From IMG/VR virus record IMGVR_UViG_3300022198_003486, positions 1-29,639 of that record: a stretch of DNA of 29,639 nt; one strand, written 5' to 3'. Positions 294-20,726 of the stretch are shown piece by piece. The DNA is from a virus. Every line of letters begins with the position of its first letter. Within the stretch, counting starts at the first letter, position 1. Under the pieces are notes generated by a model. It did no database searches. It saw only the letters and a list, made by a program, of their open reading frames with translations, and was not told the origin of the DNA. Position numbers and translations under genes: made by a program.

Positions 294-503
294 TTAATCG
301 AATTGCACCATTCGTAAGTTAACTACTGCTGTAGTAAAAGTAATGTTGTCGTCTTTCAATGTGACGGCTAACTGATTTTGAAGTTGTGCATTTGGCTCTG
401 GACTAGAGACCACTTCAAAATACTGCCCATGTTCTTCAATAATTTTTCTTAGTTTTGGATTAGCTGGTAATATCTTTGCCCACCTTCTATCTCTTAGCCT
501 CAT
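294..503 (-). CDS. Hypothetical protein, 69 aa
   Basis: Last protein gene of the leftward operon, just before the tRNA cluster. The ATG overlaps the end of the upstream helix-turn-helix gene by four bases and is preceded by AGGAG at five bases, which fixes the start. The N-terminus is arginine- and lysine-rich (MRLRDRRWAK); the rest is a mixed sequence with alternating polar and hydrophobic residues that could form beta strands (NITFTTAVVNLRMVQF). There is no membrane segment or signal peptide. I do not recognise a family. Confidence 0.75.
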   Translation of the reverse strand: MRLRDRRWAKILPANPKLRKIIEEHGQYFEVVSSPEPNAQLQNQLAVTLKDDNITFTTAVVNLRMVQFD

Positions 504-877
504 CGAATCTCCTCCTTGAAAACTATTTGATAGCCCTCTAAATTATCTTGACCATTTGCTTCAAACTCATATAAAGTATCCATGAGTTGTTTTAGATCTG
601 ATTTAGGAGATTTCTCTAAACCAAGTATAGAATTTACACTAATGTCTAATATTGAAGCTATGTTTTCTACTATTTCTTTTTTAGTAATCGGGTCTTCGCC
701 AGTCTTTGTTTTATAGACTGTTTTCTTGTAGACACCTTCCCTACTTAGTTTTCCTATTATAGATTTTACACTTTTACCCATTTCTTTACTTAGGTTTTCA
801 ACTGTTTCTCTACTAGGATTTTCTAAGTATTGCTCTTTCATATAGTTTACTTGTTCTTCTGTATAGTTTACACTCAT
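500..877 (-). CDS. Two-domain DNA-binding-like protein (HTH plus C-terminal KxEL module)
   Basis: A 125-aa protein. Residues about 5-50 (NYTEEQV, NPSRETVENLSKEMGKS, SIIGKLSREGVY) look like the helix-turn-helix/SANT-type domain of small phage DNA-binding proteins. Residues about 65-105 (ITKKEIVENIASIL, SILGLEKSPKSDLKQLMDTL) form a second helical module. The protein is clearly paralogous to the gene at 5744-6052 over both domains, and the second module alone makes up the genes at 7200-7334 and 9016-9156. The start is supported by GGGG seven bases upstream and an ATGA overlap with the preceding gene. A regulatory or genome-organising role is inferred. Confidence 0.8.
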   Translation of the reverse strand: MSVNYTEEQVNYMKEQYLENPSRETVENLSKEMGKSVKSIIGKLSREGVYKKTVYKTKTGEDPITKKEIVENIASILDISVNSILGLEKSPKSDLKQLMDTLYEFEANGQDNLEGYQIVFKEEIR

Positions 878-3992: not shown

Positions 3993-4117
3993 TACTGCAC
4001 CTCCTCGTTTTTGTGCTTTGATTTTCTACTGTATTTTGATTTATCACGCATAACTGTGCTTCGCTGGAATAATCTAGCGAACTTTGCTACTAAATTTTGC
4101 GTTTTTCCTTTTTTCAT
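3992..4117 (-). CDS. Small basic protein, 41 aa, first gene of the left operon
   Basis: Starts MKKGKTQNLVAKFARLFQRS and stays lysine- and arginine-rich to the end. The ATG lies nine bases after a perfect -10 box, so the expected leader is about three bases with no ribosome binding site: nearly leaderless translation. A longer in-frame start upstream would lie inside the promoter and is rejected. As the first gene it sets expression of everything down to the tRNAs. Function unknown; charge suggests nucleic-acid binding. Confidence 0.65.
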   Translation of the reverse strand: MKKGKTQNLVAKFARLFQRSTVMRDKSKYSRKSKHKNEEVQ

Positions 4118-4126
4118 AATAGATAT

Positions 4127-4155
4127 ATTATACAGGAGTTGGGGAATATTGTCAA
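4127..4155 (-). promoter_or_regulatory. Sigma-70 promoter of the leftward operon
   Basis: On the minus strand TTGACA (4155-4150) and TATAAT (4132-4127) match consensus at every position, with a 17-bp spacer. It is the only consensus promoter I see for the genes at 4117-294 and the tRNAs. Confidence 0.9.
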
Positions 4156-4206
4156 GAAATTTTTTTGATTTGGCATCAAAAATTTGATGTGATGGGATTG
4201 TGGATA

Positions 4207-4274
4207 ACAAAAAACCCTATGAAGCGGTGTTGTTGGTCTTGCCCGTCGGCTCACAACTCCTACAACATAGGGTT
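4207..4274 (-). terminator. Rho-independent-type terminator ending the large RNA
   Basis: On the minus strand AACCCTATG (4274-4266) pairs with CATAGGGTT (4221-4213) over nine bases, and the second arm runs straight into a T-run (4214-4209). The loop is long, about 44 bases, and probably folds inside itself. The same hairpin could be both the 3' domain of the RNA and its terminator. Confidence 0.65.
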
Positions 4275-5460
4275 CAAACGATCTTTTTTGATTTTGATTG
4301 GTTTTAGTTAGGCTATGCAAACCAATGTCTAAAAAATATGCCCATTGCTTTTTTACTGTCAGAGTCGTATATTGCAAATGCTACATTATTTCACTCATTT
4401 ATACTGCAGTGCAGTGTTCGGTTTTGTGGTTTGCAATACCACTACTTCCATAAATTGTGCCATCATAAGGGTGTTTTTTCGCTAGACTCACATCTCCTTG
4501 ATGGTGGCTACTCTACTCGTAAACTTTCGCAGTCTCCACTCGTCCACTGAACTACTCCTTCCACCCGTTGCTCGTATAGGCACTTTCGTTGCGGGTTGCT
4601 ACTTAGAGAAGATAGCTACTCATCATCAGCGTTTCCACCTTGTGAGAGCCAATCCATAGATCTTCTCAGGTACAGATTGGCATTGCCAGTAGCGTGTTTT
4701 TTACCACTTGGACATTGGCTCGTTCCTGTAATTTTCATACTTAGGTCAAGTGTTTATAATGTCAAATTCTCACTTGATACTGCCGTCATGTGGTTGGCAC
4801 TTACTTCGTCCTGCAACTTGCGTTAAGACAAGGCGGGCTAGGTATACACAGCCGAAACTGTTAGTGCCAATGTTTTTGTTAACACTGTGTGAGGTAGGCA
4901 TTTACTCCTCAACCTTACTCACAGCGTAAGAATATTGCTATCCTTAAGAGAGCTTGCATTCGTGGAAGGATTATTTTACCGCCTAAGCTGATACATTTAT
5001 TTTTTCCTATTACCCACTAGGGCAAACTCTATTAAAAATAGTGCTGTTTTCCCACTAGTCTACAGTTTCTCTGGAAAACGCTGCATAAATGCCGAGCATC
5101 TGTCCTGCGTACTCAGTGCAGGCAGTCTGACCTACTATCGACCAGCGTAGGTACTGGGTGAGCGTATTCTCATGCCTACTCACGAGGCACTTATCCCATT
5201 ACCACCTGATAAGAAGGGGGAACAGTCATATAACGATTACTGAACATCACGGGATCGCAATATTAACCTCTATTGCCCGATTATGAGGGGCGTATTCACC
5301 TGTTAGCCATTAGGGTGCACTTTTATCGGAATTGCACACTACGCCACTTCTATTACCATGCATAGTAGCCCTAAGTGGAGGGCAACAAGTCCAGCTCACA
5401 GAGGGATTAACCCATTTTCCGAAAAGCCATTCGAGAACTTGTGTTTTTCTTCTCAAATAT
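4207..5460 (-). ncRNA. Candidate giant structured non-coding RNA, about 1.25 kb
   Basis: This stretch has no credible gene on either strand, yet it starts at a perfect minus-strand promoter and ends in a hairpin followed by a T-run. Strong helices fill it: 4746-4752 with 4771-4777; 4794-4801 with 4863-4870; 4941-4945 with 4966-4970; 5104-5108 with 5118-5122; 5190-5195 with 5208-5213. Two arrangements are pseudoknots: 4606-4613 pairs into the loop of helix 4648-4654/4675-4681, and 5158-5162 pairs into the loop of 5173-5177/5185-5189. Size, pseudoknots, phage setting and nearby tRNAs recall the GOLLD and ROOL large RNA classes, but I cannot confirm membership from sequence alone. The function of such RNAs is not settled. 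Confidence 0.7.
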
Positions 5461-5466
5461 AGGAAT

Positions 5467-5495
5467 ATTATATCAAGAGTGAAACCATTTGTCAA
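5467..5495 (-). promoter_or_regulatory. Sigma-70 promoter for the large RNA (proximal)
   Basis: Minus-strand TTGACA (5495-5490), 17-bp spacer, TATAAT (5472-5467). The predicted transcript start is near 5460. There is no gene for more than a kilobase downstream, which is a main argument for a non-coding RNA. Confidence 0.9.
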
Positions 5496-5635
5496 GAAAA
5501 ATTTTGAATTATTTTTCTTGAGGTGGGCGTTGTATGTGGAATTTTCCTTTAATGCACTTCCAAAAACTTATGCAACCCTACTGAGAAGGTCTACCATTAA
5601 ATTGGTTTGTTATCTTCTCTTTTTCTCTTAAATAT
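5496..5635 (-). other. Gene-free segment between duplicated promoters; possible small RNA or long 5' leader
   Basis: About 140 bases lie between the start predicted for the upstream promoter (5635) and the -35 box of the next one. I find no gene with a ribosome binding site here; the only ATG-led frame on minus is six codons long. GAGAAG and CTTCTC (about 30 bases apart) can form one hairpin. It may be a small RNA of its own or an extended start of the large RNA. Confidence 0.35.
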
Positions 5636-5641
5636 AAGTAT

Positions 5642-5670
5642 ATTATACAGAGATTTTCACCATTTGTCAA
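5642..5670 (-). promoter_or_regulatory. Sigma-70 promoter for the large RNA (distal, near-duplicate)
   Basis: Minus-strand TTGACA (5670-5665), 17-bp spacer, TATAAT (5647-5642). The first bases of the spacer (AATGGT) and the sequence just after the -10 box (ending TATATTT) match the proximal promoter, so the two look like a segmental duplication. Confidence 0.9.
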
Positions 5671-5714
5671 GAAGAATTTTAATTTTTTTACTACTAATTC
5701 ACCTTGACAAAGGG

Positions 5715-5731
5715 GGTGAGTTAGGCTCACC
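5715..5731 (-). terminator. Hairpin after the 5744-6052 gene; weak terminator candidate
   Basis: GGTGAG and CTCACC pair over six bases around a five-base loop, 13 bases past the stop of the minus-strand gene. No clean T-run follows, so it could equally be a processing or pausing site. Confidence 0.3.
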
Positions 5732-5743
5732 ACTCCTTGACAA

Positions 5744-6052
5744 TTAGTCTACGATTGTGTCAATCAATCTTTGGAGGTCAGCCTTGCTGGCTTTCACTAG
5801 GGAAGGAAATTCCGTACCTAATTTTGACTCAATCTGAGCAAGTAGTTCCGCTTTGCGAACAATCGGCTCACCTGCTTTTGTTGTTCTTGGTTGAGTTTGA
5901 TATACGCCCTCTCTTGAGAGTTTAGCGATAACACTTCTTGTGTTTTTACCCAATTCTTTGGCTAGAGCCTCAACTGTATCTCTAGTTGGGTTTGCTGTGT
6001 ATGTTGCTACCATTTTTTCAGTCATAGCTTCTGTGTAATTAGCTGTCGCCAT
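5744..6052 (-). CDS. Two-domain DNA-binding-like protein, paralogue of the 500-877 gene
   Basis: A 102-aa protein beginning MATANYTEAMTEKM. The N-terminal helix-turn-helix-like region (NPTRDTVEALAKELGKNTR, SVIAKLSREGVY) aligns without gaps to the gene at 500-877, and the C-terminal module (KAELLAQIESKL, SLVKASKADLQRLIDTI) aligns to that gene and to the stand-alone proteins at 7200-7334 and 9016-9156. GGAG six bases upstream supports this ATG. A further in-frame ATG at 6091 sits nine bases after the -10 box and would add 13 residues. Related small proteins occur in marine phages as I know them; a transcription or DNA-organising role is inferred. Confidence 0.85.
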   Translation of the reverse strand: MATANYTEAMTEKMVATYTANPTRDTVEALAKELGKNTRSVIAKLSREGVYQTQPRTTKAGEPIVRKAELLAQIESKLGTEFPSLVKASKADLQRLIDTIVD

Positions 6053-6100
6053 TTGTTCTCCTAAAAATTTGTGTTTTAACCATTTAATCATAATAAGAAT

Positions 6101-6858: not shown

Positions 6859-7145
6859 TACAAGAAGCTTGTTATAACCCCGCGCAAGCGCGCTTAAGAC
6901 TAGCACTTCGTTTTTACACTTAGTTTTTGCACTTATGTATCACTTTAGCACTTCGTTTTTGCACTTGCGTCGGCGCAGCATGGGCGAGGCATGCAAGTAA
7001 GTGCTTACTATCGCGCAATCCCGCATGGTTAATGGGTTTTTGGCAAGGCGTGGCAAGGCGTGGCAAGTTTACCTTTTTATTTTGTCTAGCTTTTTTGCCT
7101 CACGATTGCCCTAGAAAAAATATCTGTCTTTTTGAAAATTTCCTA
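6859..7145 (+). other. Gene-free segment with repeats and GC-rich hairpins
   Basis: No gene with a ribosome binding site is visible. It holds a GCGC-AA-GCGC hairpin near 6887, the 13-bp CACTT repeats, a GC-rich patch around 6965-7025, and a tandem repeat of GGCAAGGCGT near 7043-7065. Base composition shifts abruptly from the surrounding AT-rich DNA. Confidence 0.5.
6904..6966 (+). repeat. Array of CACTT-based 13-bp repeats, copy A
   Basis: CACTT recurs at 6904, 6917, 6930, 6941, 6949 and 6962; full units read CACTTCGTTTTTG or close variants with a 13-bp step. A second array of the same unit lies at 7514-7544. Such iterons can serve as binding sites for a replication initiator or regulator. 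Confidence 0.6.
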
Positions 7146-7174
7146 TTGACATGGCGGATTGGCGTCTGTATAAT
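7146..7174 (+). promoter_or_regulatory. Sigma-70 promoter of the 7200-7334 gene
   Basis: TTGACA (7146-7151), 17-bp spacer, TATAAT (7169-7174), followed after about 25 bases by the start codon with a normal leader. Confidence 0.9.
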
Positions 7175-7199: not shown

Positions 7200-7334
7200 A
7201 TGACACAGAAAGTAGAAATCACCAAAGCCGAGCTTGTTCGCCAAGTGGAGCAAAAAATGAGATTGCCAAAGTTTGCCCTTGCTAGCTTAGAGAGAGCAAA
7301 CAAGGAAACAATCAAAGTAATCCTTGCCCAATAG
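7200..7334 (+). CDS. 44-aa stand-alone copy of the KxEL module
   Basis: MTQKVEITKAELVRQVEQKM, then a segment ending SLERANKETIKVILAQ. It matches the C-terminal module of the proteins at 500-877 and 5744-6052 (K-A-E-L, I/V-E-x-K, S-L, K-x-x-L/I) but lacks their helix-turn-helix. GAGGAGG precedes the ATG, there is a perfect promoter upstream and a strong terminator downstream, so this single small gene is a full transcription unit, likely highly expressed. If the module is an oligomerisation surface, this protein could modulate the two-domain paralogues; that is inference. Confidence 0.85.
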   Translation: MTQKVEITKAELVRQVEQKMRLPKFALASLERANKETIKVILAQ

Positions 7335-7416: not shown

Positions 7417-7654
7417 ATACGGGTGGAGAGGGCGGGAAGAACTCTAAGTTAAAAAGGGACATTTGTCGCGGTAGACTAAGCACTTGGCAAGCGCGCGCGG
7501 GCTATCACATTTGTACTTCATTTTTGCACTTCATTTTCGCACTTCGGCGCTGCGCGCCTGGCTATTGGCATCAAAATTGCCGGTGCAACCCGTTTCGCAC
7601 CGGGCGCGCCCTTTGCAAGCCCGCCCCGCCCCGCTTTCGCGGGGCTGGCTCCTA
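7417..7654 (+). other. Gene-free GC-rich segment with hairpins
   Basis: No supported gene. It contains CCGGTGC/GCACCGG (7580-7586 with 7597-7603) and CCCCGC/GCGGGG near 7628-7641, plus the eight-base palindrome GGGCGCGCCC centred near 7606. Read on the minus strand the first hairpin is followed by CAATTTT and could end the 9156-7655 operon. TCGCACCGGGCGC here recurs at about 9433, so the patch belongs to a family of dispersed GC-rich elements. Confidence 0.5.
7514..7544 (+). repeat. Array of CACTT-based 13-bp repeats, copy B
   Basis: TACTT at 7514 and CACTT at 7527 and 7540 lie at an exact 13-bp step; the unit matches array A (CACTTC, T-rich part, G). As in array A, a GCGC-rich hairpin follows directly. 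Confidence 0.55.
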
Positions 7655-10527: not shown

Positions 10528-10590
10528 GCTGGACTCCTCTTCACGTACAACTTTTAAATTTTTTGAAAAGTCAAAAAAGACGCCGTGAAC

Positions 10591-10605
10591 GCATCGTAAC
10601 GATGC
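10591..10605. promoter_or_regulatory. Short dyad just upstream of the receptor promoter
   Basis: GCATCG and CGATGC are inverted around TAA, ending 15 bp before the -35 box, a position typical of a regulator site. The sequence is not a recognisable Fur box. Confidence 0.4.
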
Positions 10606-10620
10606 ATTCGAAAATATTTC

Positions 10621-10649
10621 TTGACATTCATGGTCAATTTTGGTATAAT
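10621..10649 (+). promoter_or_regulatory. Sigma-70 promoter of the TonB-dependent receptor gene
   Basis: TTGACA (10621-10626), 17-bp spacer, TATAAT (10644-10649). An 80-base leader and an AAGGAG follow. The match is perfect, so strong expression is expected unless the upstream dyads repress it. Confidence 0.9.
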
Positions 10650-10727
10650 ACACACATCTGTAGGAAAATCTTTCTTACAGTTTCAACAATCTTTGTTAAT
10701 CAACAAAAAGCATTAAGGAGAAAAACA

Positions 10728-13700
10728 ATGGTTTTTAGAAAGCTATTCCTTGGGAGCTTTGCACTAGCGTTATTTACGCTACCAACGTTTGCCCAAGAAA
10801 CAACTTCTTCCATCAGAGGTGTAGTTCTTACGCCAAATGGGTCAGAAGTTTCAGGAGCGTCTGTCTCCATAACCCACGAGCCTTCTGGCTCAGTTTCCTC
10901 TCAAACCACTAATGATGAAGGTGTATTTCTAGCACGAAATTTACGTGTTGGAGGCCCATACACCATTCATGTCACTAGCGGTACAGGGAGTGTTCATACT
11001 GACAATCTTTTTCTAGAACTCGGCGAAACTGAGAGACTTACTCTTGTTGTTCGCACAGAGGCAGCAGAAGAAGTAGTTGTAGTAGGACAAAAATTAGCAG
11101 GTACTGGTTTAACAACTGGACCTAAAAGCACACTTACTTCAGATCAGATCGGTAATATCGCATCTGTAAAACGTGATATTAAGGATGCTGTTGCAACCCA
11201 ACCATTTGTTAATGTTTATAGCATTAGCTTCAATGGTGATGATACAGAAAGTATTTCTATCGCAGGGCAAAATGCAAGATACAGCACTTTTAGTGTTGAC
11301 GGTATCGGACAGTCTGACGATTTTGGACTCGAATTTGGAGGATATCCAGGAGTTCGTTCACCAATTTCTTTAGATTCTGTTGAACAGATAACAGTAAGTG
11401 TCGTTGGCTTTGATGTTCGTGATTCAGGATCAACAGCAGGTAATATTAATGTTGTAACTAAGTCAGGAACTAATGAATTTGCAGGTAGTATTTATGGCTA
11501 CCAGATGGGTGATAGCTGGGTCGGAGATCAAATCGAAGATCAAAAAGTCACTATTGGCGAATTTGACGAAGAAACATTTGGTTTCACATTCGGTGGACCC
11601 ATCATTAAAGACAAATTATTCTTTTTTGTAAATCAGGATAAATTTGAAAAAATGGAACCAGGACTATGGGGAGCTGCAGGATCAGGAGCTCTCAGAGAAG
11701 TAGACGGAGTATCTTTAGCAGATGCAAACGAGATTATAAATATCGCGAATTCTGTTTATAACTACGACGCAGGATCTGCATCAGGCATGAACAACTCATT
11801 ACTTGATGAAGATTTACTTGTAAAAATAGACTGGAACGTAAATGACGATCACAGACTTACATACACTCACCAAACATCTGATAATAATGATGTAAGAGAG
11901 TATGGAGGTTCACAAACAACTTTAGCACTTACAAGTGGTAATTATATTAAAACAACTGAACTAGAAGCAAATAGCATGCAGTTATTTAGTGACTGGACAG
12001 ATAATCTTTCTACTACTTTAAGATATGGTGCAAGAACTGTAGACACAGCACAAGATAGTGTTGGTGGTGCAGATTTCATGAGAGCCGTAATTGAATTAGG
12101 AGAAGGCAATAGAGGCCCTCAAGTATTAATTGGTCCAGACGTATTTAGACACTTTAATACTCTTACTACTGATACTACAGAATTTTCATTTGAAATGTCT
12201 TATCTAGCAGGTAATCATGAATTAGTAGCTGGTGTGCATATGAATGAAGTTGATGTATTTAATGGATTTGTTGCATACTCAGATGCAGAACTTTTGTTTG
12301 CTTCTATAGAAGATTTTGCAAATAAAACTCCATATAAAATAGATTATAGAAATGCTCCAACTGGCGACCCCGCTGATGGTTCAGCAGCTTTCGCAATCGA
12401 AAGAACAAGTTTCTATATTCAAGATACTTGGGATGCTACTGACAGACTTACATTACAATTTGGTGTAAGAATGGAAGACTACTCAATGGATCAAGCTCCA
12501 AAATACAATCCATTAATTGAACAATATCATGGAATTAGAAATGATACAAGTCTTGATGGAAAAGATCTAGTATTACCAAGATTTGGTTTTACTTATGACT
12601 TTGGTGATTTTGGAATGATGAACGGCATTACCTTTAGAGGTGGCGCAGGCTACTTTACAGGTGGAAGACCAAATGTATGGATGGGAGGTACTTTCAGTAA
12701 TGATGGTATTGGTATTCAAAATGCAAACGTACCATTGAGCGCAGCTTTAGATTTTGACGGTTTCGATACTTCTGTATTTGATCCTTATATCTATCAAGTA
12801 GGTCAACCAGGGTTTAGACCAGGATATGCAGATGTCATGGATCCAAACTTTGAACTACCAAAAGAACTTAAAGTTTCTGTTGGAATGGATTGGGAAATGG
12901 GCGATGGCTATTTCTTTAGTGCAGACTACTTAGTAACAGATACAGTCAAAGACTTACATTTCAAACAACTTAGATTAGGCAACCCAGCATTTGGTGGAAT
13001 TGCAAACTGTGGTATTGAAGTAACCAACTTACCAATCGGTACAGGCCCAGACGGTAGAGCAATTTATGCTGACTACAGTCTTTGTGGCAAAGCAATGGAG
13101 AAATTCATTGATAACATGGGTTACGACATGCTACTTACAAATACTGACAAAGGTAACTCACAATTGTTTAGTATTGCAATGTCAAAAGCTTGGGAAAACT
13201 GGGATATCTATGCTAACTACACATGGCAAAATATTAACACTGTTGGAAATTTAACTTCTTCAAGAAATATTTCTAACTATAAGTATACAACTAAATATGC
13301 AGACTTCAATGAAGATGTATTACACAGATCAGTATATGAAAGAGAGCATACATTTAATTTTGTAGCAAATTACAAAACTTTTGTATTCGGCGAAGAAGCA
13401 CCAACTACTTTCTCCTTTATCGGAGCAGCAATTAGTGGTGAGCCTTTCTCTTATACACTTGGACAATATAAAGATGGCGCCCTTTGGGGATTAGACACAG
13501 AATCAGTTAGAGACGAAACTGCTGCATTCTATGTACCAAACGGTGATGTCATTATACCAAGCTGGTTTGCAGATGACTTTAATTCTTACATTGAAGCAAC
13601 TGGTTTAGATCAGTATGCAGGTGGATTTGCACCAATTAACGGTTTTGAAACTGATTGGAACTATAGACTTGATTTCAAACTTACTCAAGAGTTCCCAGGT

Positions 13701-13970
13701 TTCGGATTAACAGATAATGATAAATTTGTATTAACATTTGATGTTGAAAACTTACTTAACTTAATTGACAATGAATGGGGAAGACAGACCAAGGCTTCTT
13801 CCACAGCAAGAGCATTAGCTGAAGCAATTCCTGTCAACTTAGGCGATGGTAATTTTACATACGAATATAGACCAGCTTACGGTATGAATATCAACAGAGT
13901 TTATAACGAAAGCACAAACTATTATAGAAGTTTATATCGTATACAGTTAGGATTCAAATACGTATTCTAA
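10728..13970 (+). CDS. TonB-dependent outer-membrane receptor (Oar-like)
   Basis: A 1080-aa receptor with AAGGAG upstream of the ATG. Residues 1-22 are a signal peptide ending TLPTFA. Residues about 27-105 form a carboxypeptidase-regulatory-like beta domain (SIRGVVLTPNGSEVSGASV), typical of Oar-type receptors. A TonB-box-like EEVVVVG follows, then a plug domain (SISIAGQNARYSTFSVDGI; DVRDSGSTAGNINVVTKSGT) and a long beta barrel ending in aromatic YRIQLGFKYVF, the outer-membrane insertion signal. Such receptors import siderophores, vitamins, sugars or peptides using TonB energy; the ligand here is unknown. It is full length, intact and has its own promoter and terminator. A receptor of this size in a phage genome is unusual. 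Confidence 0.95.
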   Translation: MVFRKLFLGSFALALFTLPTFAQETTSSIRGVVLTPNGSEVSGASVSITHEPSGSVSSQTTNDEGVFLARNLRVGGPYTIHVTSGTGSVHTDNLFLELGETERLTLVVRTEAAEEVVVVGQKLAGTGLTTGPKSTLTSDQIGNIASVKRDIKDAVATQPFVNVYSISFNGDDTESISIAGQNARYSTFSVDGIGQSDDFGLEFGGYPGVRSPISLDSVEQITVSVVGFDVRDSGSTAGNINVVTKSGTNEFAGSIYGYQMGDSWVGDQIEDQKVTIGEFDEETFGFTFGGPIIKDKLFFFVNQDKFEKMEPGLWGAAGSGALREVDGVSLADANEIINIANSVYNYDAGSASGMNNSLLDEDLLVKIDWNVNDDHRLTYTHQTSDNNDVREYGGSQTTLALTSGNYIKTTELEANSMQLFSDWTDNLSTTLRYGARTVDTAQDSVGGADFMRAVIELGEGNRGPQVLIGPDVFRHFNTLTTDTTEFSFEMSYLAGNHELVAGVHMNEVDVFNGFVAYSDAELLFASIEDFANKTPYKIDYRNAPTGDPADGSAAFAIERTSFYIQDTWDATDRLTLQFGVRMEDYSMDQAPKYNPLIEQYHGIRNDTSLDGKDLVLPRFGFTYDFGDFGMMNGITFRGGAGYFTGGRPNVWMGGTFSNDGIGIQNANVPLSAALDFDGFDTSVFDPYIYQVGQPGFRPGYADVMDPNFELPKELKVSVGMDWEMGDGYFFSADYLVTDTVKDLHFKQLRLGNPAFGGIANCGIEVTNLPIGTGPDGRAIYADYSLCGKAMEKFIDNMGYDMLLTNTDKGNSQLFSIAMSKAWENWDIYANYTWQNINTVGNLTSSRNISNYKYTTKYADFNEDVLHRSVYEREHTFNFVANYKTFVFGEEAPTTFSFIGAAISGEPFSYTLGQYKDGALWGLDTESVRDETAAFYVPNGDVIIPSWFADDFNSYIEATGLDQYAGGFAPINGFETDWNYRLDFKLTQEFPGFGLTDNDKFVLTFDVENLLNLIDNEWGRQTKASSTARALAEAIPVNLGDGNFTYEYRPAYGMNINRVYNESTNYYRSLYRIQLGFKYVF

Positions 13971-15045: not shown

Positions 15046-15438
15046 ATGGCATATAGCAAAGAAGTAGTAGAAAGATTTGAAGGAGTTTTAAACAGTCCTC
15101 AACAATTTTCAGTAGGAAGATTTGATCCTAAAGATCCAAATGTAGCGACTGGAATGGTTGGTGCACCCGCTTGTGGTGATGTAATGAAACTACAACTTAA
15201 AATTGAAAATGACCTCATAACTGATGTAAAATTTAAAACATACGGTTGTGGTAGTGCTATTGCTTCTAGCAGTCTTTTTGTAGAAATGTTAAAAGGTAGA
15301 ACTATAGAAGAAGCAAAAGAAATTAAAGACAAGGATATTGCAAAAGCATTAAACCTGCCAACAATTAAACTACACTGTTCTGTGCTAGCGGAAGACTCTA
15401 TTCGACGAGCAATTCAAGATTGGGAAAGCCGTGGATAA
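15046..15438 (+). CDS. iscU: IscU-type iron-sulfur cluster scaffold
   Basis: A 130-aa protein that matches bacterial IscU along its length: start MAYSKEVV, GMVGAPACGDVMKLQ (C43 and D45), KTYGCGSAIASSS (C68) and KLHCSVLAED (H110, C111). All three cluster cysteines, the aspartate and the histidine are present, so it should be a working scaffold for assembling 2Fe-2S clusters with the host IscS; the LPTIK segment, close to the LPPVK that HscA binds, is also kept. A few extra residues near position 12-22 separate it from cellular IscU. No other isc genes are near. It lies between two related membrane proteins in an operon of packaging and surface genes. Confidence 0.95.
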   Translation: MAYSKEVVERFEGVLNSPQQFSVGRFDPKDPNVATGMVGAPACGDVMKLQLKIENDLITDVKFKTYGCGSAIASSSLFVEMLKGRTIEEAKEIKDKDIAKALNLPTIKLHCSVLAEDSIRRAIQDWESRG

Positions 15439-15700: not shown

Positions 15701-16109
15701 TGCTGATGAGATGGTACATAAATTCAAAAGTCCTTCCTTCAATGGTATGGGCACTTCGGCCCATTATCTCACTATAGAAAACCAAGAATCTACACGCCAG
15801 CAAAAACTAAAAGACGATTTACAAACAGCGATTGATGAAGCAAAAAGAGAGGCAGAAAATTCAACTCTTGCACGCTTTCTCAAAAATTTTGAAAGCAGAG
15901 TCTATTCACAACTTTCTAGAGATCTTGTAGATCAACTATTTGGAAGTGATGGGCAAGGACTTGAAGCGTATGGCACAGTTGTCATCGAAGGAAATACTAT
16001 AGAGTATACTTCCGATGGAGTTACCATTACTCTCAAGATAACAGATTCAGATGGCAATATTACAGAAATCACAATTCCTATCGGTTCCTTTGGCGACTTT
16101 ATGCCTTAG
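15660..16109 (+). CDS. csgF: CsgF-like curli assembly protein
   Basis: A 149-aa protein with a signal peptide (KKSLLILLSLTINA), then the CsgF mark: VHKFKSPSFNGMG, equivalent to the F-x-F-x-N-P-x-F-G-G start of E. coli CsgF that plugs into the CsgG pore. The C-terminal half ends in strands (TIEYTSDGVTITLKITDSDG, ITEITIPIG) as in CsgF. In bacteria CsgF links the CsgG channel to the growing curli fibre at the cell surface. It overlaps the previous gene by 41 bases and csgG by 59, so production of the two is tightly coupled. Confidence 0.85.
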   Translation: MKKSLLILLSLTINADEMVHKFKSPSFNGMGTSAHYLTIENQESTRQQKLKDDLQTAIDEAKREAENSTLARFLKNFESRVYSQLSRDLVDQLFGSDGQGLEAYGTVVIEGNTIEYTSDGVTITLKITDSDGNITEITIPIGSFGDFMP

Positions 16110-16914
16110 CGGATGCTTTGGGGGTTATGATGTTGTCAACTTTATGGGGAACAATACAGGCTACTTTACAAAAATGGAAGCAGCTGAGATTAGACAGATC
16201 ACTCATGAAGGTCTTTGGAATCTTACTCGTGAGTCTAGTGATGTCCCAACTGTTGCTGTATATAGCTTCAGTGACCTCACAGGACAACGTAAAAGTAATT
16301 CACAGTTCGCGTTGTTCAGCACTGCAGTCACCATGTCACCTGATGCCTTACTCGTCAGAGCATTAAAGCATGCAGGTAAAGGAAAGTTTTTTCGAGTTGT
16401 AGAAAGAGTTGGGTTAGATCATCTTACAAAAGAGAGACAACTTATTCGGTCAACAAGAGAATCATTAAGAGAAGCAGCAGATATGCTTCCATTATTGTTT
16501 GCTGGACTTATTATTGAAGGAGGTGTTATAGGATATGATACCAATCTCAAGTCTGGAGGAACAGGGGCAAGATATTTAGGTATTGGAGCAACAAAACAAT
16601 ATCGAGAAGATACAGTTACAGTATCTTTAAGAACAGTCAGTGTATCGACTGGAGAAGTACTCATGGAAGTACTTATTACAAAAACAATTTTATCCGTAGC
16701 AGTAAATCAAGATATATTTAGATTTATTGAAATGGGAACCGAACTGGTGGAAGTTGAAAATGGAGTGACAAAGAACGAAAGCGTTACTATCGCACTTCAG
16801 AAAGCAATTGAAACAGGGGTGTATCAAACTATTCTAGAAGGGAATAAGAGAGGCTATTGGAAAATAGCCAGCTTGGGAGACGAGCAAAATGAAATTAGTG
16901 GGGATAAATCTTAG
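16051..16914 (+). CDS. csgG: CsgG outer-membrane secretion channel
   Basis: A 287-aa lipoprotein. The signal peptide ends in lipobox LSGC (C22) and is encoded within the end of csgF. The mature part matches CsgG throughout: VYSFSDLTGQRKSNSQ, VVERVGLDHLTKERQLIRST, IIEGGVIGYDTNLKSGGTGA, RYLGIGATKQY, VSTGEVLMEV and TKTILS, and FRFI near the end. CsgG forms a ring-shaped pore in the outer membrane that exports curli subunits; the Y-S/T-N constriction region corresponds to GYDTNLKSG. Length is close to the E. coli protein. csgE, needed for efficient gating in E. coli, is not seen. Confidence 0.95.
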   Translation: MAILQKSQFLSVPLATLCLSGCFGGYDVVNFMGNNTGYFTKMEAAEIRQITHEGLWNLTRESSDVPTVAVYSFSDLTGQRKSNSQFALFSTAVTMSPDALLVRALKHAGKGKFFRVVERVGLDHLTKERQLIRSTRESLREAADMLPLLFAGLIIEGGVIGYDTNLKSGGTGARYLGIGATKQYREDTVTVSLRTVSVSTGEVLMEVLITKTILSVAVNQDIFRFIEMGTELVEVENGVTKNESVTIALQKAIETGVYQTILEGNKRGYWKIASLGDEQNEISGDKS

Positions 16915-17632
16915 TTTAATAGCTTTAGTAATTTTTACTATAGGTGCTTATGCAGCAGACAATGAAATTTATATTACACAGTCTGGAACAAACGCACAAA
17001 TAGAAATTGATCAAGTAGGAAGTGGAAACCAAGTAAAAGGAAACGAAGCAGCTGCAGGGCAAGATCCAATTAGTGCTTTTAGATTGATTGGAAATAGCCA
17101 AACAATTGATATAGATCAAATTGGCGGTGGAAACGATTTTATCGGTGACATCGTAGCAGATACAGTTGCAGGTAACTTCAGTTTTGATGGTGATAACAAT
17201 ATTTTTGATATTGATGTTGACGCAACTGGATCTTATGGTGGTGATAACCTAAATATAGATGTAGACGTAACTGGAAGTGGAAATGACATGACTGTTACAA
17301 TTGCTACATCTGCTTCAGCAACTGGTGTAGATTATGATGCAATTATAAGCGGAGATTATAATACGATTGTAAGTGCGATTGATCTTGATAATGCAATTTT
17401 CAATATTGATATCACTGGTGATTATAATACACTCAATTATGATGGAGATAACTACGCAGGACATGAGTTCTACTTAGATCACACTGGAGATTATGTAAAC
17501 TTTACAATTGATCAACAGTCAACTCTAGCACAAGACTATTTAAACATAAACAGTACTACAAGCGGAACAAGTGGAGCAAATGCGAATATTTGTATTTATC
17601 AAAATGATTCTGGCACTGTCACTTCATGCTAA
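16889..17632 (+). CDS. Curlin-like amyloid subunit (CsgA/CsgB-type)
   Basis: A 247-aa exported protein: signal peptide ending GAYA, then curlin repeats ITQSGTNAQIEIDQVGSGNQ and IDIDQIGGGND, with the Q-x-G-x-N pattern of CsgA and CsgB. Later repeats drift to TGDYNT and GSGND but keep a strand-turn rhythm, and the C-terminus carries two cysteines (ICIYQNDSGTVTSC). It is rich in D, N, G and T with almost no lysine. GGGAG precedes the ATG, which overlaps csgG. It is the likely substrate of the CsgG-CsgF channel. Whether it truly forms amyloid fibres cannot be seen from sequence. Confidence 0.85.
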   Translation: MKLVGINLSLIALVIFTIGAYAADNEIYITQSGTNAQIEIDQVGSGNQVKGNEAAAGQDPISAFRLIGNSQTIDIDQIGGGNDFIGDIVADTVAGNFSFDGDNNIFDIDVDATGSYGGDNLNIDVDVTGSGNDMTVTIATSASATGVDYDAIISGDYNTIVSAIDLDNAIFNIDITGDYNTLNYDGDNYAGHEFYLDHTGDYVNFTIDQQSTLAQDYLNINSTTSGTSGANANICIYQNDSGTVTSC

Positions 17633-18656
17633 TGGCATAGGAAGTGTTACAGAGTTAAATGGCAATCATGCCGAAATAAATAGAACGGGTGAGAAATTGC
17701 CCGTTTCTACTAATATAGGAGTAGAGAGTTATGATGACGTTCGAACTGCTAATACTCGCCTCGGTATTACTTTTAGTGACGATTCTGTTGTCCGTCTCAC
17801 TGAGCATAGTAAGCTTATACTTGATGAAGTGGTCTTTGACCCAAATCCATCAAAGTCAAAAATTGGTTTACAATTCGCTTCAGGAACTGCAAGATTTATC
17901 ACGGGAAAGATAGGTGCGATTAATAAGGAGAATATTTCTATATCCACTCCGACTGCTCAAATCGGTATTCGTGGGACTGATTTCACTGTTACTGTTGATG
18001 AGTTGGGGCGTAGTTTGGTTATTCTGCTTCCTGATCTCAATGGCATATCTAGTGGTGAAATCACGGTAGCAACGGCAGCAGGCACTACGGTCTTAAACAG
18101 ACCCTTTGAAAGTACAGTAGCAAGCATGTGGGAGAAAGCTCCCACTAACAGTGTAATACTAGACTTAACTTTGGATGCGATTGACAATATGCTAATTGTC
18201 AGTCCTCCAAAGGAAGAAGAGTTGATTGAAGAAGAAAGAACTCAACGAGCAGACTTCTTAGACTTCAACGACTTAGATGTAGACTTACTAAATGAAAACT
18301 TATTAGAAGAAGATTTCGAATTTACAGAATTAGACATAGATTTATTAGATGTTAATTTTTTAGAGGATTTACTCAACATTATCGAGGCACTAGATGAACT
18401 CGAAGAAGATAAAGCATTAGACAGTGATGGAACTGTCAATATTGTAGGAACAGAAATAGGGCAAGACAAAGATACACAAATAATAACGATTGTGGATGCT
18501 CAGACTATAAACTTGAGTCGACAGGTAAGTGACTTTTTAAAAGTTACATTAGACACTCAGAATGGGTATAACCTTACGCTTTCACAAGATGGTAAAGATT
18601 ACAATATTATTATTAATGGTGGTGGTTCCAACATCATTATTCGCCAGTCTGAGTGA
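17580..18656 (+). CDS. Exported FecR-domain protein with acidic linker and curlin-like tail
   Basis: A 358-aa protein from the ATG at 17580 (a GTG three codons earlier is possible). After a signal peptide (RIFVFIKMILALSLHANG) comes a FecR domain: IGSVTELNGNHAEINR, DDVRTANTRLGITFSDDSVV, then STPTAQIGIRGTDFTV, the hallmark end of the domain. Residues about 215-285 are a D/E/L-rich repetitive linker. The last 50 residues include LTLSQDGKDYNIIINGGG and SNIIIRQS, resembling the curlin Q-x-G-x-N pattern of the gene before it. FecR domains often occur beside membrane cyclases. It overlaps both neighbours. Confidence 0.85.
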   Translation: MRIFVFIKMILALSLHANGIGSVTELNGNHAEINRTGEKLPVSTNIGVESYDDVRTANTRLGITFSDDSVVRLTEHSKLILDEVVFDPNPSKSKIGLQFASGTARFITGKIGAINKENISISTPTAQIGIRGTDFTVTVDELGRSLVILLPDLNGISSGEITVATAAGTTVLNRPFESTVASMWEKAPTNSVILDLTLDAIDNMLIVSPPKEEELIEEERTQRADFLDFNDLDVDLLNENLLEEDFEFTELDIDLLDVNFLEDLLNIIEALDELEEDKALDSDGTVNIVGTEIGQDKDTQIITIVDAQTINLSRQVSDFLKVTLDTQNGYNLTLSQDGKDYNIIINGGGSNIIIRQSE

Positions 18657-18954
18657 TTGGACAAAAACAGAGCGAAACTTATTTTATGCTTATAATATAG
18701 GAAGTTGGATAGACTACGAGCAATCAAAAGACGCTCTTAAAAGTGGAAGATATATAGAAAGCAACCCACTATTTCCAGACTCTCCTCACCCAGACAGAAT
18801 ACTTGCACAAAAAATACTAGGATCATATATATTGTATAAATTTAATGATAGTAGAGACAATCGAAAATACGGACTTATTGCAGCAAATATAGTTCAATGG
18901 GGAGTAGTACTTAATCACGAAAGTATGGGCATAAACTTTAAAATATCATGGTAA
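18589..18954 (+). CDS. Exported or membrane protein of unknown function, 121 aa
   Basis: Signal peptide or membrane anchor (VKITILLLMVVVPTSLFA) followed by LSDWTKTERNLFYAYN, WIDYEQSKDALKSGRYIESN and a C-terminus ending INFKISW. A D-x-x-Q-S plus E-x-NPL pattern (ESNPLFPDSPHPD) recalls small membrane proteins of unknown function. The gene begins 68 bases inside the FecR gene and ends inside the cyclase gene start. An in-frame ATG at 18562 would add nine residues before the signal. Position between FecR and the cyclase suggests a partner of one of them. Confidence 0.7.
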   Translation: MVKITILLLMVVVPTSLFASLSDWTKTERNLFYAYNIGSWIDYEQSKDALKSGRYIESNPLFPDSPHPDRILAQKILGSYILYKFNDSRDNRKYGLIAANIVQWGVVLNHESMGINFKISW

Positions 18955-20726
18955 GATTAGCAATAGCAGCAGCATGTTTAGGACTTTTTCTTTGGAATCC
19001 TTATCCATTCAAAGTCGCTGAACTTAAAGGATATGATTATCTTATCATGTCTACACCCGCCGTACAAAATGATAATATTCTTATTGTAGATGTAGATGAA
19101 GAAATTGTAAAAGCATACGGCGGTTATCCGCTTCCACGGACATTCTACGCCGATCTTATAGATAGAACAAATGTAGCAGGTATAACAGTTCTTATGCCTG
19201 ATTCCGATATTCGAGACTCAAGAAATGATTATGCTCTAGCAAGTTCCATGATGCAAGTACCAACTGTTCTTGCCTCTGCAGCTTCAAGCCAATCACAGGA
19301 GCTTTCTTTACACGTAGGAACAGCTCAATTAGGAGAAGACCCACTACCATGGCTATATCAATACCCAGGAATTTTACGTACAGAGTCTATTCTGGCGTCA
19401 ACCGCAAAGGGACTCGGTCTAGTAACCGCTACGCCGGAAATCGACGGGGTTACTCGACGTATTCCTCTAGTACTAAACGTGCAATCAAAACTGTACCCGA
19501 GTTTCGCTCTGGAACTCTTAAGAGTCGCAGTCGGAGATCCTTCGTACCAGCTAAAAACAACACAAGAAGGAGTTTCTTGGGTTAGAGTACCTAACTATCC
19601 ATTAATGAATACAGATGCGAATGGTCGCATCTTTTTAGATTGGAATACTAAATTCTATCGCCAATCAGCAGCAGAGTTTATGCAAAATCCAATACCAGCA
19701 CCTTTTGTAATTGTTGGAGTCACTGCAGAAGGTGTAAATAATCCAACTCCAACACCAGCAGGAGCAAAATATCCACATGAAATACAAGCGAATATTTTAC
19801 ACAATCTTATTAATGGGAGCGCTCCTTCTACCCCTACTTGGGCTGGCGGAGCCGAGCTTGCGGGAGTACTACTTATATTATTACTCCTTATCCTCGTCGC
19901 AGGGAATGTCTATCTATCCCTCCCTACCTTAATATTAGCGATATCAGGTTCCTTATATGGAGCCTGGTATGCGTTTCAATCTTCCTATTTGATAGACGTA
20001 ACTGGCACAATTTTTATCGGGTTTTTATTCTGGAGTATTGAAAGTTTCCGTAATTTCATGACTACATATTTCGAGAAACTTAGAATTAAACAACAATTTG
20101 GGACGTATGTATCTCCAGAGTTAGTGAAAAAATTACAGGAGGACCCAACATTGCTGAGATTGGGTGGGGAGACAAAACGACTCACTTTTCTTTTTTCTGA
20201 CATTCGAGGATTCACACCAATTTCAGAAAAATATCAAAAAGACCCACAAGGTCTTACAAAATTAATAAACAGATTTTTAGACAACCAAACACAAATAATA
20301 TTAAAACACGGTGGAACCATTGATAAATATATGGGAGACTGTATAATGGCATTTTGGGGAGCACCACTTGATGATGACGACCAAGTTAAACATGCCACAG
20401 ATGCTGTTATCGAAATGAAACAGTCATTAGAGGACTTAAATGAAAGACTCCGAGAAGAAGGCTTGGATCAAATTAATACAGGAGGTGGAATCAACACAGG
20501 AACTTGCGTGGTGGGAAACTTCGGTAGCTCCAATCGTTTTGACTATAGTGTGCTTGGGGACGCCGTTAATTTGGCTGCTCGTTTAGAGAGTCTTTGTAAA
20601 GAATATGATGTTGGGATAATAATCTCAGAGTATAGTTTAGTTGATGGGTACGATTATGAATATTTAGACGAGGTAATCGTTAAAGGTAAGACAGAGCCCA
20701 TCAAAATCTATACCATTCGAAAATAA
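18948..20726 (+). CDS. CHASE2-domain adenylate cyclase
   Basis: A 592-aa membrane cyclase. A first helix near the start anchors a CHASE2 sensor (residues about 25-290: ILIVDVDEEIV, PLPRTFYADLI, LVTATPEIDGVTRRIPLVL), followed by three membrane helices (about 302-362) and a class III catalytic domain (about 405-590). Catalytic residues are intact: metal aspartates D418 (FSDIRGFT) and D464 (DKYMGDCIMAFWG), substrate residues K460 and D538 (LGDAVNLAARLE), which point to ATP rather than GTP, and N541 and R545. It should make cAMP inside the cell in response to a periplasmic signal. It ends the operon. Confidence 0.95.
   Translation: MVRLAIAAACLGLFLWNPYPFKVAELKGYDYLIMSTPAVQNDNILIVDVDEEIVKAYGGYPLPRTFYADLIDRTNVAGITVLMPDSDIRDSRNDYALASSMMQVPTVLASAASSQSQELSLHVGTAQLGEDPLPWLYQYPGILRTESILASTAKGLGLVTATPEIDGVTRRIPLVLNVQSKLYPSFALELLRVAVGDPSYQLKTTQEGVSWVRVPNYPLMNTDANGRIFLDWNTKFYRQSAAEFMQNPIPAPFVIVGVTAEGVNNPTPTPAGAKYPHEIQANILHNLINGSAPSTPTWAGGAELAGVLLILLLLILVAGNVYLSLPTLILAISGSLYGAWYAFQSSYLIDVTGTIFIGFLFWSIESFRNFMTTYFEKLRIKQQFGTYVSPELVKKLQEDPTLLRLGGETKRLTFLFSDIRGFTPISEKYQKDPQGLTKLINRFLDNQTQIILKHGGTIDKYMGDCIMAFWGAPLDDDDQVKHATDAVIEMKQSLEDLNERLREEGLDQINTGGGINTGTCVVGNFGSSNRFDYSVLGDAVNLAARLESLCKEYDVGIIISEYSLVDGYDYEYLDEVIVKGKTEPIKIYTIRK

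Follow-up and report, generated by a model that had tools for sequence, protein, structure and literature searches.

A probable new class of giant structured noncoding RNAs in phages

The locus and its surroundings

The DNA analysed here, a complete IMG/VR record with a length of 29,639 bases, comes from an uncultivated tailed phage; this whole stretch is called the window in the following. It carries phage genes for a portal protein, a prohead protease and a large terminase. The best cultured matches of the terminase, at about 50% identity, come from Serratia, Yersinia, Vibrio and Klebsiella phages of 109-123 kb, which we take to be T5-like. A stretch with no credible gene (4207-5460) sits among small leftward genes, in a block that also contains tRNAs and a polynucleotide kinase-like gene. 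The initial annotation had pointed to phage tRNAs nearby, and three tRNA genes are indeed found at 52-287, about 4 kb downstream of the RNA that we describe here. On its other side, and conserved in this place next to the RNA, lies a gene for a small D5-like/HTH DNA-binding protein (5744-6091, minus strand; phrog_323, phrog_1725). A second D5-like regulator gene is located near the tRNAs (500-877, minus strand).

Elsewhere in the window, a 44-aa mini-protein is encoded at 7200-7334 on the plus strand, with a perfect promoter of its own (7146-7174) and a terminator-like hairpin downstream; it weakly resembles the C-terminal part of the D5-like regulator and is kept in the relatives L140 and L003. 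Two clusters of iteron-like GCACTT repeats with T-rich spacers (6903-6966 and 7480-7544) adjoin divergent promoters and are possible candidates for an origin or a regulator binding site. We also find a 1135-aa TonB-dependent-receptor-like outer membrane protein (OMP_b-brl_4, CarboxypepD_reg and Plug; 10563-13970, plus strand) that has no PHROG match. Finally, CsgG, FecR and a CHASE2-adenylate/guanylate cyclase protein are clustered at 16051-20726 (plus strand), that is, host-like sensing and secretion genes occur in a phage; a NifU-like gene (15046-15438) accompanies this cluster.

Boundaries of the transcript

The consensus promoters reported in the initial annotation are present on the minus strand as two sigma-70 promoters of the form TTGACA-17-TATAAT, each matching at 12 of 12 positions. 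The proximal one (5495-5467) has in addition a TG before the -10 element, and relatives have a perfect or 11/12 promoter in its place. From the upstream one (5670-5642), which is kept in many relatives but not in all, the transcript would be about 175 nt longer. The tandem promoters are separated by a leader (5641-5496, minus strand), and the promoter units are copies of about 79% identity. The spacing of the tandem promoters is variable across relatives, with roughly 110 to 305 nt, while a single promoter is present in some.

At the other end, the same-strand hairpin with a T-run that had been noted before corresponds to an intrinsic terminator (4275-4208, minus strand) with a 10-bp stem (GAACCCTATG/CATAGGGTTT), a 44-nt loop and a T run (TTT). 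A simple terminator scanner missed it because of the long loop. Comparable terminators are present in 66 of 71 relatives, as opposed to 1 of 71 shuffles. Directly past the terminator follows the promoter of the next operon (4155-4127, minus strand), again TTGACA-17-TATAAT with 12/12 matches and conserved in relatives. From these bounds we predict a giant noncoding RNA of about 1254 nt on the minus strand, with its 5' end near 5460 and its 3' end near 4207.

The ORF statistics speak against a coding stretch, and we rejected this explanation: the longest sense ORF has a mean length of 55 aa over the 71 full family RNAs, compared with 56 aa after shuffling, which bears out the earlier observation that the stretch holds no credible gene. 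A role as leader of the next gene was rejected as well, because the terminator and the fresh promoter after it close the RNA off.

Relatives of the RNA

Using the D5-like protein (5744-6091), for which the collection holds 182 relatives, we gathered 33 loci at first and 80 subsequently. In nearly all of them a regulator is followed by one or two perfect promoters; a stretch of 0.4-1.6 kb without genes then leads to a terminator, another perfect promoter and small genes. This arrangement of regulator, promoter, noncoding stretch, terminator and promoter is seen in about 80 related phage contigs, which contain 66-77 distinct RNAs: 82 promoter-bounded segments were reduced to 66 distinct RNAs at 97% identity, and the number is 77 once loci found via the RNA itself are added. 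Among the loci that were found by the RNA pattern alone and that had enough upstream sequence, 15 of 17 have the D5-like gene upstream, and one of the two exceptions is a chance hit (L212, see below).

While the layout is constant across the roughly 80 loci, the RNA sequence diverges past recognition by BLAST. An alignment with the window RNA over the full length, with 82-84% identity, is possible only for L116 (which is identical to the contig L003) and L140; other relatives share islands, some of which, including the core module and GCGAGATTCAGCTTTAGCTGTCAACCCCATCAAG, are common to several groups. The latter is found in L116, L140 and 22 other RNAs, and the window has a different sequence instead. 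From the sharing of islands between groups and from this replacement we infer that the RNA evolves by modules.

We were not able to find cultured relatives, neither with the RNA nor with its D5-like neighbour protein. The window RNA had no similar record in the whole phage collection, and members of three groups showed no similarity to any of 50,697 phage records. In one relative, a tRNA-like Rfam match just under the threshold (26.7 bits; L148:525-603, plus strand) is located between the regulator gene and the promoters of the RNA.

Secondary structure and covariation

The initial annotation described many perfect helices. These helices are present, but in the single sequence they do not go beyond chance: the MFE z score is about -1.2, neither strand exceeds its shuffles, and better scores than that of the RNA stretch are reached by two coding stretches of the window (-3.7 and -5.8). 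Single-sequence folding energy was therefore dropped as evidence. The single-sequence case alone is weak, and it is the comparison with relatives that establishes the predicted structure.

When aligned relatives are folded together, the alifold energy compared with column shuffles gives z = -7.4 for the trio of window, L116 and L140, -11.5 for group A and -13.4 for group B. Within the trio there are seven helices of at least 5 bp with two or more compensated pairs, versus 0.8 after shuffling.

To analyse covariation we used a self-written test, which is R-scape-like but not R-scape itself: a G-test with APC, with a null in which substitutions are redistributed on a FastTree tree, and with a cut-off of E <= 0.05. 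Covariation among homologues had been proposed in the initial annotation as a check of the helices, and in group B (28 sequences) this tree-aware test yields 11 significant pairs. Ten of these form standard base pairs in 93% or more of the sequences, some of them crossing. Widening group B to 45 sequences degraded the alignment and left 10 significant pairs, of which only 6 are standard, so that the global alignments have to be considered imperfect. In the window's own group, which with 11 sequences has no power, no pair is individually significant.

The 5' domain (5385-5442, minus strand) consists of an outer helix (5442-5435/5392-5385) with two compensated pairs in the trio, and of an inner hairpin with the conserved TTTCGKAAA...TMTGTG, the stem of which covaries among relatives (GCT/AGC, ACT/AGT, ACA/TGT and TCG/CGA). 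A search with a stricter 5'-domain pattern gave no additional genomes. Furthermore, a hairpin module GTTTTCC...GGAAAAC (5046-5079, minus strand) is common to the window's group.

Two interlocking pairs of helices had already been suggested, and both exist. Pseudoknot a (4606-4681, minus strand) is formed by the stem 4681-4675/4654-4648, whose loop (4667-4660) pairs with 4613-4606. Its chance is about 0.02 according to dinucleotide shuffles; the stem has one compensated pair in the trio and the knot stem is invariant. Pseudoknot b (5158-5189, minus strand) combines the stem 5189-5185/5177-5173 with a pairing of loop 5183-5179 and 5162-5158. About 45 pseudoknots of this size are expected by chance in the window RNA, but both stems are compensated in the trio, the hairpin at two pairs and the knot stem as GTGAG/CTCAC versus GTGTG/CACAC. 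Pseudoknot c (4711-4775, minus strand), which is absent from the initial annotation, shows four compensated pairs of the trio in stem 4775-4771/4752-4748 and two in stem 4763-4758/4716-4711.

The core module

The core module (4962-5017, minus strand) is composed of P1, an A-rich internal loop and the P2 hairpin; the covariance model matches the window at 5009-4966 with 60.7 bits. P1 is formed by GTGGG/TCCAC and AGG/CCT, the internal loop by AAAAAATAAATG and AAATAA, and P2 is a hairpin with a bulged A (TATC-A-GC...GC-GGTA). As a search pattern we used AGG-n-AAAAAATAAATG-(P2)-AAATAA-n-CCT (5009-4966 in the window), in which the pairing positions were left free. This pattern is found in 48 of the 77 RNAs; part of the family is without a core module. 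P2 is fully paired in each of 47 sequences, compared with a mean of 13 after shuffling, and P1b in 46 of these, in both cases by nine different helices. P1a, which lies outside the pattern, shows concerted changes too.

Across 30 distinct loop-trimmed sequences, pairing holds in 270 of 270 cells, and at seven of the nine pairs both sides have changed. The number of cells changed on both sides is 48, compared with 13 after shuffling, and pairing falls to 47-48% if the partner is slid by one column. One of the P2 pairs is U-G in 13 of the 30 sequences, where the opposite strand would give A-C; therefore the minus-strand RNA, and not the DNA, is the selected molecule.

A core model built from 19 members finds the held-out member L192 with 49.9 bits. 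In viral contigs the pattern matches 55 stretches, and 27 of the 29 newly examined ones have a perfect promoter upstream, while one is cut by the contig end. L212 was rejected as a chance match, having neither promoter nor pairing. The eight matches in 257 Gb of cellular genomes are likewise attributed to chance, as none of them has all four free pairs and none has promoters.

A conserved U tract near the 3' end of the RNA (about 4340, minus strand) is complementary to the A-rich loop of the window (4993-5005, minus strand), and a tertiary contact between them is possible. We did not adopt this long-range pairing, which fits the window but not fully L116.

Interpretation

To our knowledge, only a handful of giant structured RNAs of bacteria and phages are known, and their functions are unsolved. 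Judging from the sequence comparisons, the RNA described here is very probably an independent, structured, noncoding RNA of a class that is not in Rfam, and our best reading is a new class of giant structured phage RNA that would act in trans. The comparison indicates that the RNA is noncoding, folds on the sense strand and is separate from the next gene, and it supports the family, the predicted transcript bounds and the base pairing. The central claim of the initial annotation, a giant pseudoknotted noncoding RNA with its own predicted promoter and terminator, thus finds support in the comparative data.

According to this reading, the host sigma-70 polymerase would start at about 5460 from the perfect consensus promoter, transcribe about 1.25 kb leftwards and stop at about 4207; from the consensus promoter we infer that the RNA is made early and strongly. 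It would then fold in domains, namely the 5' hairpin domain, the core module with its large A-rich internal loop, and pseudoknots, at least two of them supported by covariation and a third one conserved. Since it would stay untranslated and is closed off from the next gene, the RNA would act in trans as a folded object.

As with GOLLD and ROOL, this object may be present in large amounts during infection and may serve as a rigid scaffold, perhaps a particle self-assembled from several copies, a mechanism that we consider plausible, if tentative. The analogy is based on its size and pseudoknots and on its location in a phage with tRNAs nearby, as in GOLLD and ROOL (PMC12286853). As a signature of symmetric self-kissing we looked for palindromic loops that covary; their number did not exceed what chance would give, so that self-assembly gains no support here. 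That we see a new giant phage RNA class, unrelated to GOLLD, ROOL and OLE, which assembles its own RNA-only or RNA-dominated particle, is rather doubtful as a combined claim; if it is true, RNA particles would be a tool of infection on which unrelated phage groups have converged with several classes of giant RNA.

Potentially, the RNA could instead be bound by the small basic D5-like protein encoded upstream, or by a host protein, and could tune transcription or titrate the protein, as 6S and CsrB-type RNAs titrate theirs. Gene and RNA adjoin in 15 of the 17 loci found via the RNA alone, and the D5-like protein resembles DNA-binding regulators. However, its matches are DNA-binding and not RNA-binding families, adjacency without interaction is common in phage genomes, and CsrB-type RNAs contain many copies of a simple motif, whereas the core module occurs once per RNA. 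We regard this explanation as unlikely.

We hold it to be quite improbable that the RNA serves as a decoy for anti-defence or host takeover, keeping a host RNase, a tRNA-cleaving nuclease, the ribosome or a defence sensor occupied early in infection. The perfect host-type promoter suggests early and strong expression, the block of small genes around the RNA includes tRNAs and a polynucleotide kinase-like gene, close relatives can exchange a domain, as would fit an arms race, and GOLLD was reported to pull down ribosomes (PMC12286853). On the other hand, the strong conservation of several core features (P1/P2, A-rich loop) points to a partner that is conserved as well. Noncoding DNA with many inverted repeats might also be suspected to be a decayed gene, or to act at the DNA level as a replication origin or as a site of packaging or recombination, but this is hardly credible given strand-specific promoters and terminators in all groups, the free use of sense-strand G-U pairs, pairing that is kept while the sequence changes, and ORFs no longer than in shuffles.

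The 2025 cryo-EM study of GOLLD, ROOL and OLE left open how common RNA cages are among large natural RNAs (PMC12286853). Read as a new class of giant phage RNA, the present family would add to them an independent case, which can be synthesised and directly tested. It comprises dozens of diverse members; its transcript bounds are predicted exactly, its helices and pseudoknots were tested by covariation, and the gene next to it is conserved. It also illustrates that such RNAs can escape Rfam and BLAST though conserved across a phage clade.

Comparison with known RNAs

GOLLD, ROOL and OLE are large structured RNAs with a poorly understood function, and the former two occur near phage tRNAs and assemble into cages made of RNA only (PMC12286853). 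The GOLLD cage is a 14-mer with D7 symmetry and that of ROOL an octamer. GOLLD is a giant noncoding RNA of phages and prophages, often longer than 800 nt, near tRNA genes and with an elaborate secondary structure; we count its less conserved 5' region as a further likeness (PMC12286853). The window RNA is likewise phage-encoded and, with 1254 nt, longer than 800 nt, and has the tRNA genes at 52-287. ROOL resembles it in being phage-borne, several hundred nt long, with multiple pseudoknots and near tRNA islands, and is very abundant where measured (PMC12286853).

The initial annotation left the choice between a divergent GOLLD or ROOL member and a new class. Size, phage setting, nearby tRNAs and pseudoknots would agree with the former, but Rfam 15 contains no family that matches the window RNA. 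GOLLD (RF02032) reaches 11.5 bits (E 4), compared with a gathering score of 150, in a truncated hit at 5651-5800, that is, upstream of the RNA and outside it. The ROOL covariance model is not among the matches up to E 10 for positions 4000-5800, and neither model matches in the relatives scanned. A divergent GOLLD or ROOL RNA is thus extremely improbable, and a new class is favoured. A publication on the present family was not found in a literature search that covered a minority of the subscription journals.

The most abundant transcript of ICP1 is a noncoding RNA of about 800 nt, from the gp139-gp140 interval, in which about 1 kb is without orfs, a likeness to the window RNA (PMC7567579). Moreover, the ICP1 noncoding interval (L257:5080-6120) ends with a terminator followed by promoter-like sequence, which is the layout of the window RNA without sequence similarity. 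Recognisable homology was not found: the core model has no match in ICP1 75-105 kb, BLAST aligns only 43 terminator-like nt, and the adjoining genes are unrelated. A homology in structure that leaves no trace in the sequence is conceivable. ICP1 also differs in having no tRNAs (PMC7567579). Staphylococcus phage K, finally, has two long noncoding RNAs near tRNAs, which by their description are similar to the RNA presented here, being long, highly transcribed and next to tRNA genes (PMC9241854).
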